Of a DNA stretch of 64,000 bases, positions 9,392-55,507 are shown in pieces. How positions within the stretch are numbered: the first letter of the stretch is position 1; each line of letters starts with the position of its first letter. The notes beneath the pieces are model-generated. The model was not told the DNA's origin, did not search any database, and saw nothing but the letters and a program-made list of their open reading frames with translations. Position numbers and translations under genes: made by a program. Source of the DNA: Flavobacteriaceae bacterium (lineage in GTDB: Bacteria > Bacteroidota > Bacteroidia > Flavobacteriales > Flavobacteriaceae). The stretch spans positions 22,325 to 86,324 of the forward strand of contig JABDIV010000025.1 in the NCBI GenBank assembly GCA_013003555.1, written 5' to 3'.

Positions 9392-9928
9392 TTATTGCTT
9401 CTGAAGGCATTCTTTTGCAAATTCTGGAGCATAACTCATGTCCGAATCTGGTAATTGGATTCCTTCAACAAAAATGGTTTCCTTGATCTTGCCGTTCTTG
9501 ATTATCAATTTAGGCATGAGACAATAAATACCGTTAATATCATCAATTGCAAAATTGAAATCCGCGAGATAAATATCATCATTAAAAGTCTCGGTCTGTA
9601 CATATTTACCCGAGGCAAAAATGTCTGGCTGTTGGGTATCGATTTGAGAAACAGGACCGAAGAACATCTTCGCATCACTAATCTTCCAATACTTTGTCTT
9701 GTACCTAATGGTCAACCAGCCCGTTTTGTGATTAACGAAACTTTCAATAGTACCTCTATAAACGCCTTTCTCGTTTACAAGGTATGCTACAGAGCAAGAT
9801 GCATCTGCCTTAACACTTCTGGTGTTAAGTTCATCCTGACTGTTAAAATCATCATTGTTAATGCTGTCAACGCTGCACGAAGTTACGAATAAGGCAAGCG
9901 CAAAAATGTAAAGTAGTTTTTTCATCAT
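9392..9928 (-). CDS. Lipoprotein of unknown function
   Basis: MMKKLLYIFALALFVTSCSVDS lipobox; start set at 9928. Confidence 0.75.
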   Translation of the reverse strand: MMKKLLYIFALALFVTSCSVDSINNDDFNSQDELNTRSVKADASCSVAYLVNEKGVYRGTIESFVNHKTGWLTIRYKTKYWKISDAKMFFGPVSQIDTQQPDIFASGKYVQTETFNDDIYLADFNFAIDDINGIYCLMPKLIIKNGKIKETIFVEGIQLPDSDMSYAPEFAKECLQKQ

Positions 9929-10102
9929 ATAGTAAATTTGGGGTTTACAGGTCAAAAGTACTTCAGGGTTTGAATATCTGTTAATAATTACGATAAGCGG
10001 CTCGAAAATTCGTTAATCTTACACCCTAACAGTCAAATGGAATAAATTAATCGATAATCGGCACCATGACCCAGTAAAGTCCTGTTTTACAGGATATTAA
10101 CG

Positions 10103-52508: not shown

Positions 52509-54407
52509 ATGAGTGATTTCATAAAACACGAATGCGGGATTGCCCTAATCAGGTTGCTTAAACCATTGTCGTACTATAAAGAGAAGTATGGCAGTGCCTA
52601 TTACGGTATACATAAAATGTACCTGATGATGGAAAAGCAACATAACCGCGGCCAAGATGGTGCGGGTTTTGCCAGCATTAAATTAAATATGAGTCCGGGG
52701 GAACGCTACATCAGCCGTGTGCGCTCTATTCAGGCTCAGCCCATTCAGGATATTTTCTCGCAAATCAATTCTCGTATCTCTCAATCGCTAGCCGAACGTC
52801 CTGAAATCAAGGATGATGTCGAGCAGCAAAAGAAAGAAGTTCCTTATTTGGGAGAACTTTTATTGGGCCATGTGCGATACGGAACGTTTGGAAAAAACAG
52901 TGTTGAAAGCGTTCACCCATTCTTAAGGCAGAATAACTGGATGCATCGAAATTTGATCTTGGCAGGGAATTTCAATATGACCAATGTTAAGGAATTATTT
53001 AAAAACCTTGTTGATCTGGGGCAGCATCCTAAGGAATATACCGATACCATAACCATCATGGAAAAAATTGGTCATTTTCTGGATGATTCGGTTCTTAAAA
53101 TGTACAAAGACCTTAAAAAAGAAGGATATAGTAAAAGTGAGTGCTCACCGCTTATCGCCGAGCGACTGAAGGTTGCAAAAATTCTGAAGCGAGCTGCTAA
53201 GAACTGGGATGGCGGTTACGCCATGGCTGGTTTATTGGGACACGGTGATTCATTCGTCCTCAGAGATCCGGCGGGAATCCGTCCGGCCTATTATTACAAA
53301 GATGAGGAAATTGTGGTCGTTGCATCAGAGCGGCCGGTTATTCAGACGGTTTTTAATGTTCCCTTTGAAGATGTACATGAACTCGATCGGGGGCATGCTA
53401 TAATTACGAAGAAGTCCGGAGAAGTTAAAATTAAAAAGATTCTTAAACCGCTTGAGCGCAAAGCGTGCTCCTTTGAAAGAATTTATTTTTCCCGGGGCAG
53501 TGATGCCGAGATCTATCAGGAAAGGAAGCTTTTGGGTAAGCTTATTGTTCCGAGAGTACTTGAGTCTATTGACCATGATATTGAGAATTCTGTGTTTTCA
53601 TTTATACCTAATACGGCCGAAACATCTTTTTTCGGGATGATTGAAACCGTAGAAGCATATTTAAATGAAAAGAAAACCAAAGCTATTTTAAATGGAAAGC
53701 GCTCCCTTTCAGCTGCCAGGGTCAAGGAAATTTTATCGGTAAGACCTCGAATTGAAAAAATTGCAATCAAGGACGTCAAACTTAGAACTTTTATTACAGA
53801 AGACAGCAGTCGGGATGATTTGGTTGCTCATGTATATGACGTCACTTATGGCGTTGTAAGGCCAGAAGATAATTTAGTAATAATAGATGATAGTATCGTT
53901 CGCGGAACAACCTTGAAAAAGAGCATCCTCAAAATGATGGACCGCCTCAACCCTAAAAAAATCGTAGTGGTTTCATCGGCCCCTCAAATTCGATATCCCG
54001 ATTGTTATGGCATCGATATGGCGAATTTAGGAAGTCTTATCGCATTCAGGGCGGCGCTCGAATTATTGCGTGATCAAAACAAATATGGACTTGTTGATGA
54101 GGTATATGCTAAATGCAAATCACAGGTAAAGTTAAACGATAATAAGGTGAAGAACTATATCCGAGAAATTTACGATCAATTCACAGCCGATGAAATTTCA
54201 AAGAAGATTGCACAACTCTTAAGCAACAATGAGCTTGGAGCTGAAGTCGAAATCATTTTTCAAACCATTGAAAACCTTCATATGGCCTGTCCCCTGAATC
54301 TTGGAGATTGGTACTTCACCGGTCAATACCCTACTCCAGGTGGTAACCGGGTTGTCAACCAGGCATTTATCAATTTTTACGAAGGAAATCAGGGTAGACC
54401 ATATTAG
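52509..54407 (+). CDS. Amidophosphoribosyltransferase-like protein, long (632 aa) form
   Basis: N-terminal MSDFIKHECGIALI (class II amidotransferase Cys), QHNRGQDGAGFAS, PRPP site NLVIIDDSIVRGTTLKKSI. Confidence 0.88.
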   Translation: MSDFIKHECGIALIRLLKPLSYYKEKYGSAYYGIHKMYLMMEKQHNRGQDGAGFASIKLNMSPGERYISRVRSIQAQPIQDIFSQINSRISQSLAERPEIKDDVEQQKKEVPYLGELLLGHVRYGTFGKNSVESVHPFLRQNNWMHRNLILAGNFNMTNVKELFKNLVDLGQHPKEYTDTITIMEKIGHFLDDSVLKMYKDLKKEGYSKSECSPLIAERLKVAKILKRAAKNWDGGYAMAGLLGHGDSFVLRDPAGIRPAYYYKDEEIVVVASERPVIQTVFNVPFEDVHELDRGHAIITKKSGEVKIKKILKPLERKACSFERIYFSRGSDAEIYQERKLLGKLIVPRVLESIDHDIENSVFSFIPNTAETSFFGMIETVEAYLNEKKTKAILNGKRSLSAARVKEILSVRPRIEKIAIKDVKLRTFITEDSSRDDLVAHVYDVTYGVVRPEDNLVIIDDSIVRGTTLKKSILKMMDRLNPKKIVVVSSAPQIRYPDCYGIDMANLGSLIAFRAALELLRDQNKYGLVDEVYAKCKSQVKLNDNKVKNYIREIYDQFTADEISKKIAQLLSNNELGAEVEIIFQTIENLHMACPLNLGDWYFTGQYPTPGGNRVVNQAFINFYEGNQGRPY

Positions 54408-54521
54408 TCTTAATTTTCATTTTTTGTCAGTTTATCTATAAAATTTGCCGTTTTAACTAAAAAATGTGCATTTCATCTAATATTTATACCCAGTCAGATA
54501 AAAACCGCATACTTTAGTAGA

Positions 54522-54597
54522 ACCATAACATAAGTAGGTTAAGTTCATGGTAGATTTGGGGCAAAAAAAGGTGAACTCTTGTTCACCTTTTTTTATT
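54522..54597 (+). ncRNA. Putative small RNA, copy 1 of a tandem pair
   Basis: 45/46 identical to copy 2 over the 5' 46 nt; TACTTTAG box 12 nt upstream; terminator AAAAAAAGGTGAAC tctt GTTCACCTTTTTTT. Confidence 0.75.
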
Positions 54598-54746
54598 TGC
54601 TATTGCGAAATAACGATTTTACTCTCCTTTTTAAAAACCCATCTCAGTAATTTATCCAATTGATCTTCAAATGCACGTATTTAAACGCTTAGACTAATTT
54701 ATGAGTCGTTTGTCTAATAAATTTAAATGTTTAAAAGAAGCTACGT

Positions 54747-54754
54747 TATATTTG
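54747..54754 (+). promoter_or_regulatory. -7 box (TATATTTG) of putative sRNA copy 2
   Basis: Exact TAnnTTTG; same spacing to the conserved element as TACTTTAG (54510-54517) in copy 1. Confidence 0.6.
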
Positions 54755-54758
54755 TTTC

Positions 54759-54833
54759 ACCATAACATAAGTAGGTTAAGTTTATGGTAGATTTGGGGCA
54801 AAAAGGTGGACGCAAGTTCACCTTTTTATTTTT
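54759..54833 (+). ncRNA. Putative small RNA, copy 2 of a tandem pair
   Basis: ACCATAACATAAGTAGGTTAAGTTTATGGTAGATTTGGGGCAAAAA conserved; terminator AAAAAGGTGGAC gcaa GTTCACCTTTTT. Confidence 0.78.
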
Positions 54834-54851
54834 AAGGAACTATACGAAATA

Positions 54852-54880
54852 AAAAAGCCGATTCTTAGAATCGGCTTTTT
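54852..54880. terminator. Bidirectional intrinsic terminator
   Basis: AAAAAGCCGATTC tta GAATCGGCTTTTT. Confidence 0.88.
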
Positions 54881-54898
54881 GCATATTTGTACTTATTA

Positions 54899-55507
54899 TT
54901 ATTTACTCAAGGCATATCGTCTTTCTGCCTCATTCCAATTGATCACGTTAAAAAAGGCTTGAATATAATCAGGACGTCTGTTCTGATAATGGAGATAATA
55001 CGCATGTTCCCAGACATCAATTCCTAGAATGGGCGTTCCGCCGCATCCAACATCTGGCATTAGGGTATTGTCCTGGTTAGGGGTTGAGCAAACCTCAACG
55101 GCTCCACCTTTATGAACACATAACCAGGCCCATCCAGATCCGAAACGCGTTGCGGCTGCTTTGCTAAAGGCTTCCTTAAAGCCATCAAAGGAACCAAATG
55201 CGTTCATAACGGCATCACGCAATTCCCCCGAAAGGCGACCTTTATCTTCAGGGTTCATAATTTCCCAGAACAAGGCATGATTATAATATCCACCTCCATT
55301 ATTCCTGACGGCCATATTACTCATATCAAGGCCGGTTAATATATCTTCTATGCTCTTATTTTCTAGAGCAGTCCCTTCAATAGCAGCATTCAATTTAGTC
55401 GTATAACCGTTATGGTGTTTAGAATGATGTATTTCCATTGTCCGAGCATCGATGTATGGCTCGAGTGCATCATATGCATATTTTAATTTTGGTAATTCAA
55501 ATGCCAT
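54899..55507 (-). CDS. sodB: Superoxide dismutase Fe/Mn
   Basis: [59 protein letters not shown]. Confidence 0.97.

Follow-up and report, generated by a model that had tools for sequence, protein, structure and literature searches.

A multicopy small RNA family of the Flavobacteriaceae with predicted antisense pairing at the start codon of a small-protein mRNA

We describe a family of tandemly repeated small RNA (sRNA) elements that is conserved in most Flavobacteriaceae, and we propose, with a probability of roughly 0.7, that it constitutes a family-wide, multicopy, trans-acting antisense sRNA that blocks start codons, with the mRNA of a 41-42-aa protein as its strongest target and probably a wider regulon of surface proteins. 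Flavobacteriaceae are major degraders of polysaccharides in the sea and in soil and, to our knowledge, almost nothing is known about their post-transcriptional regulation. If our proposal is correct, the sRNA would be among the most widely conserved in the Flavobacteriaceae. It would provide a target that is concrete and almost perfectly complementary, as well as an operator that could lead to a regulator and a link to surface and secreted proteins, in a circuit that is open to experiment in genetically tractable strains. A sequence-only reading of the same DNA had proposed a duplicated sRNA; the array character of the family (1-7 copies), the operator-like repeats and the targets go beyond it, and the target is the new result.

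Results

The window, by which we mean the whole stretch of 64,000 nucleotides analyzed, contains two copies of the element between a purF-like gene and a convergent sodB (Table 1). The sequence-only reading had described copies 237 bp apart, a single difference in their first 46 nt and a box starting 12 nt ahead of each. Both copies lie where it put them, the one difference is C/T at 54546/54783, the distance to each box is exactly 12 nt, and the gap between the genes (54407 to 54899) measures 491 bp. The 5' hairpin, previously suggested for copy 2, folds in both copies, each of which also has a terminator and an 11-nt single-stranded linker in its predicted fold; hairpin and terminator together reach -22.8 kcal/mol in copy 1 and -20.7 kcal/mol in copy 2. 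Chance is excluded for this arrangement, which is seen again and again in members of the family. A further hairpin, AAAAAGCCGATTCTTAGAATCGGCTTTTT (window 54851-54881), is a probable terminator between copy 2 and the convergent sodB.

Table 1. Coordinates in the window of the sRNA copies, their upstream elements and neighbors, and a candidate pairing site
Feature	Position	Strand	Basis or remark
sRNA copy 1 (C variant)	54522..54594	+	103 bits, covariance model; covariation; folding
Copy 1, 5' hairpin	54522-54551
Copy 1, single-stranded linker AGATTTGGGGC	54552-54562
Copy 1, terminator	54563-54594
sRNA copy 2 (T variant)	54759..54827	+	87.3 bits, covariance model; folding
Copy 2, hairpin	54759-54788
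Copy 2, linker	54789-54799
Copy 2, terminator	54800-54827
Promoter box TACTTTAG, copy 1	54510..54517	+	-12 to -5; conserved over 125 first copies
Promoter box TATATTTG, copy 2	54747..54754	+	-12 to -5; conserved over 221 later copies
Three direct repeats upstream of copy 1	54430..54479	+	Putative activator operator; 20-21 bp apart; units 54430-54438, 54451-54459, 54471-54479
Two direct repeats upstream of copy 2 (CGCTTAGACTAA, CGTTTGTCTAA)	54686..54717	+	Putative activator operator
purF-like gene	52509..54407	+	Conserved upstream neighbor
sodB (Mn/Fe superoxide dismutase)	54899..55507	-	Conserved downstream neighbor, convergent
Candidate pairing site CCCCAAATTTACTAT	9929..9943	-	Prediction only; directly before lipoprotein start codon
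Lipoprotein gene with candidate site CCCCAAATTTACTAT	9392-9928	-

Both the 5' hairpin and the terminator covary. Among 112 aligned matches, two-sided changes were found in 16 of 19 base pairs compared to a shuffled mean of 5.1, and standard pairs occupy 98.7% of cells, in an alignment that was fitted to the covariance model and is biased toward supporting covariation. Little or no variation is seen in UAAGUAGGUUA, which includes the GUAGG loop, in AUGGU or in the linker AGAUUUGGG. A coding function of the core can be dismissed: the ORFs that the copies contain do not share frame or end point from one copy to another, single-base changes in the length of A-runs recur, and GGUAGAUU/GGUAAGAUU length variants occur. 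Searches of viral contigs, phages and plasmids gave no matches, and a phage, plasmid or mobile origin was rejected. As far as Rfam goes, the earlier label of an undescribed RNA also stands, as nothing in the window reached the gathering threshold in Rfam 15. All candidates there were sub-threshold, among them BTnc231 at 54773-54881, a span that includes the sodB-side terminator. A literature search by text returned no earlier account of the sRNA. The Flavobacterium psychrophilum Rfp series (Rfp1-89) comes from a 2021 transcriptome study that newly described 85 small RNAs (PMC9723704), and one of them could be the same RNA. We regard the sRNA as an undescribed family without an Rfam match. The description as an undescribed, terminator-ended, duplicated small RNA with a promoter box of its own is supported and fits all the evidence.

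A pattern search of 100 relatives detected copies in 31, which all belong to one family, and a covariance model built from 31 copies, whose E-values are rough, extended the occurrence to 244 of 301 Flavobacteriaceae genomes, a count inflated by kinship among genomes. Strong matches were confined to the Flavobacteriaceae among 248 genomes sampled from the order; extra-family matches (E 0.001-0.01, about 30 bits) were judged terminator-like as a group. Named contigs with the sRNA belong to Flavobacterium, Zobellia, Maribacter, Aquimarina, Winogradskyella, Salegentibacter and others. Of 99 loci examined, 83 have the array between the purF-like gene and sodB, a constancy that refutes a dispersed repeat. 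Exceptions mostly keep one neighbor, and some loci end at contig edges. Arrays comprise 1-7 copies with a median spacing of 215 bp (194 distinct arrays) and, at the variable site, 85 of 127 multi-copy arrays carry C in the first and T in the last copy. Two dispersed copies with their own terminators lie away from sodB at G007:C13 463996 and 472620, about 8.6 kb apart in alike surroundings, and G026:C2 is another locus with a copy outside the usual setting. The window's own assembly contains a second version of the sodB region (L005, on the 5.7-kb contig G000:C21) that is about 75% identical. The DNA upstream of its sRNA looks the same as in another genome (L028 in G002), and it is therefore probably a co-binned contig from a related species.

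Alignment of 346 array copies (125 first and 221 later copies) at the first sRNA base revealed T at -12, A at -11 and TT at -8/-7 conserved at 81-99%, while the adjacent DNA is not. For flavobacterial sigma-A promoters, a TAnnTTTG box has been reported at this same position (PMC9723704). Further upstream, T-rich direct repeats begin near -70 and -50 in first and later copies, and their spacing of 20-21 bp is visible in individual sequences. A loose search for two-repeat operators elsewhere showed no enrichment over a reversed control. The window's own assembly also has operator-like repeat pairs (e.g. TTTCATCGATTATTTTTGTTATTTCATCGA) ahead of genes for predicted secreted proteins of very large size, at L447 (- 16056), L469 (- 16389) and L471 (- 14136), and these genes may share the transcription regulon of the sRNA.

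Candidate targets were sought in 20 relatives as a linker complement near ATG (CCCAAATCT, a gap, then ATGA). The matches comprised the sRNA loci themselves and one recurring non-self site, flanked by scoB and a convergent ABC-transporter gene (flanks read without a family search). Here, repeats resembling those of the sRNA are followed by a promoter-like box and by a leader that is complementary to nearly the full length of the sRNA; the complementary stretch continues into the start codon of a 41-42-aa ORF (sORF). A second near-full-length complement lies within the sORF, and a third lies further upstream in some species. Over 28 loci, the median duplex energy was -40.1 kcal/mol at the leader/start site, compared to -13.1 with shuffled sRNA (z -8.7), and -38.0 compared to -14.0 kcal/mol at the in-ORF site (z -7.4); a control part of the sORF reached only -13 kcal/mol. 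Within the in-ORF site, Leu is encoded by CTA in 28/28 sequences versus 40/159 elsewhere (Fisher 6e-15), and the DNA is therefore constrained beyond the protein. Conserved complementarity between the sRNA and an unlinked mRNA thus exists in the small-protein mRNA. In the window's own assembly, the sORF is at G000:C57:127681-127785 and ends at the contig edge; its duplex reaches -46.7 kcal/mol and, net of the structures of both RNAs, co-folding gains about 33 kcal/mol with one sRNA copy and about 31 kcal/mol with the other.

The encoded protein is variable overall, with N5-L6, K16, T35-K36-K37 and M40 kept; it ends in LTKK[IVL]FML, and its C-terminal part is hydrophobic. No Pfam or NCBIfam match was found for the sORF, and no Rfam match at the gathering threshold for the target loci. 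A profile search detected the sORF in 130 of 301 genomes, a count likewise inflated by kinship; 127 of these carry the sRNA, a co-occurrence (Fisher 5e-12) that is inflated by species relatedness. In 117 genomes the sRNA is present without a detected sORF. Since roughly half of the genomes with the sRNA have no detected sORF, the sORF cannot be the sole reason for conservation of the sRNA. At target promoters the operator repeats lie about one helical turn nearer the box than at the sRNAs. Lone near-full-length anti-sRNA sites were also observed at L289 (G036:C5 near 586) and L293 (G048:C10 near 200510), directly 5' of intrinsic-terminator-like hairpins and outside detected ORFs. These are possible 3'-end-derived sponge RNAs.

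Weaker candidate sites precede genes for exported proteins. The two-part motif CCCAAA...CTACTTATG, seen before such genes in 15 and then in 55 genomes, occurred 107 times versus 72 in a reversed control (1.5-fold, 55 genomes), by a pattern that requires ATGA and from places partly picked by eye, which favors exported proteins; in the window's own genome alone, a related pattern stayed below control (18 versus 31). Start codons with the motif belong to exported lipoproteins, proteins of the type secreted by the type IX secretion system (T9SS) and one Fer4_19 protein, and such sites recur at the starts of apparent orthologues across several genera. Examples are lipoproteins beginning ...SCSKDTDLL (L356, L408; L416 as ...SCSKDSDLL) or ...SCSDETTV (L357, L359, L409), VGIGNTSP-like proteins (L363, L379, L405) and the Fer4_19 protein (L375, L396), whose copy in the window's own genome (L471, Pfam E 1.4e-19) emerged from an independent energy ranking. 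A test less biased than the motif search ranked every one of the 720 gene starts within stretches of that genome that total about 0.8 Mb. Six genes reached -26 kcal/mol or below versus 0.5 with shuffled sRNA, and the excess was clearest among predicted exported proteins, as called by a simple hydrophobicity rule: 25 of these reached -18 kcal/mol or below compared to a mean of 10.9, and 0/100 shuffles reached 25. In samples of about 0.4 Mb from two relatives the excess was weaker or absent: for Zobellia p was 0.03 at a single one of several thresholds tried, and for G046 p was 0.01 when all genes were taken, again at a single threshold of several, and 0.06 for exported proteins. These predicted pairings suggest a wider surface-protein regulon. 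In addition, a CsgG-type lipoprotein gene (L393, G115:C11 572538) carries CCCAAATTGATAGTACTTATG at its start.

Discussion

We propose that a putative activator, at a guess from the repeat spacing a LytTR-type response regulator, binds the direct repeats of 20-21 bp and activates every copy at a TAnnTTTG-type promoter of its own, and that the intrinsic terminator then releases an RNA of about 70 nt. Two segments of this RNA, both invariant and unpaired, would be exposed: the region of the hairpin loop (UAAGUAGGUUA, with GUAGG as the loop) and the linker AGAUUUGGG. They could pair with CCCAAAUCU in the mRNA leader and (C)CUACUUAUG; candidate pairing partners are AGAUUUGGG / CCCAAAUCU and UAAGUAGG / CCUACUUA. 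Such pairing would cover the AUG start codon and is expected to block translation. The strongest target would be the mRNA of the 41-42-aa protein, with its two, sometimes three, near-full-length sites. As the same operator type is present at target and sRNA, the two are probably co-induced. The weaker two-part sites at exported lipoproteins, T9SS-secreted proteins and the Fer4_19 protein might extend this control to a surface-protein regulon.

Other explanations need to be weighed. A location that almost always adjoins the purF-like gene and sodB could indicate a cis element or attenuator of either gene, with no independent RNA. This is scarcely credible, as each copy has a promoter box and terminator of its own and lies 3' of the purF-like gene, on the strand opposite that of sodB, and a few copies occur elsewhere (e.g. 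G007:C13, G026:C2). The near-invariance of both unpaired segments would also fit an sRNA that is mainly a protein-binding decoy and uses the GUAGG loop and the linker, which is rich in G, for this purpose; long trans complementarity and the synonymous constraint on the target already explain this invariance, and we consider a decoy improbable. We judge a type I toxin-antitoxin-like pair, with the small protein as toxin and the sRNA as antitoxin, to be very improbable. The protein is indeed short with a hydrophobic C-terminal part, the antisense RNA covers its start codon, and the putative antitoxin is present in 127/130 sORF genomes; however, the sRNA is far commoner than the sORF (117 genomes have no detected sORF), is unlinked and multicopy, and has further candidate targets.

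A less distant alternative, though still somewhat unlikely, is that the small-protein mRNA serves mainly as a sponge, whose tandem sites soak up sRNAs and set a repression threshold for other targets, repression of the small protein itself being secondary. Several near-full-length sites in one short mRNA, an operator type common to both partners and the single anti-sRNA sites just 5' of terminators (G036:C5 and G048:C10) point in this direction, while the most stable leader site reaches the start codon, as in repression, and the sORF is conserved as a protein-coding frame. Start-codon repression and titration might also be combined. Tentatively, we envisage a circuit in which one operator type controls both the array and the small-protein mRNA, this mRNA is target and sponge at once, and free sRNA trims the translation of surface proteins.

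Near-identical multicopy sRNAs, some of them in tandem, are known from other phyla. Listeria LhrC, streptococcal csRNAs and Vibrio Qrr are under signalling control and pair at translation starts; we know of no sequence relation between them and the sRNA described here.

By analogy, the sRNA is most likely a start-codon-blocking repressor comparable to FopS yet outside the FopS family. FopS is a paralogous sRNA family of Bacteroides thetaiotaomicron (Rfam RF04319), whose members are about 65-70 nt long, have canonical sigma-ABfr promoters and terminators, and pair with the start-codon regions of surface-protein mRNAs (PMC11697453). Our family is similar in having paralogous copies in a genome (here 1-7 per array), a similar length, and a promoter and intrinsic terminator of its own, which as far as sequence can tell is what a trans-acting sRNA generally has. 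Predicted start-codon complementarity is strong here for the sORF and moderate for exported proteins. The stretch UUCAUGGUA..AGAUUU is common to both (p 0.05 to 0.009 versus shuffles) and may reflect common descent or convergence on start codons. Membership in FopS was rejected at 22.0 and 17.2 bits versus a gathering score of 56, and homology is suggestive only. Unlike FopS, the sRNA has an additional 5' hairpin and a dedicated small-protein target with multiple sites, and its copies form a tandem array at a single conserved locus, those of FopS being spread over many loci. FopS RNAs are bound by the RRM protein RbpB (PMC11697453); a crude motif scan that covered about a quarter of the genome yielded no RRM candidate, and one may still exist.

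Within the same family of bacteria, Rfp18 from F. psychrophilum is a conserved flavobacterial sRNA with predicted secreted-protein targets (PMC9723704). Rfp18 is described as pairing via its third stem-loop, whereas our sRNA consists of one hairpin and a terminator. The two resemble each other as conserved flavobacterial sRNAs with predicted targets among secreted proteins.
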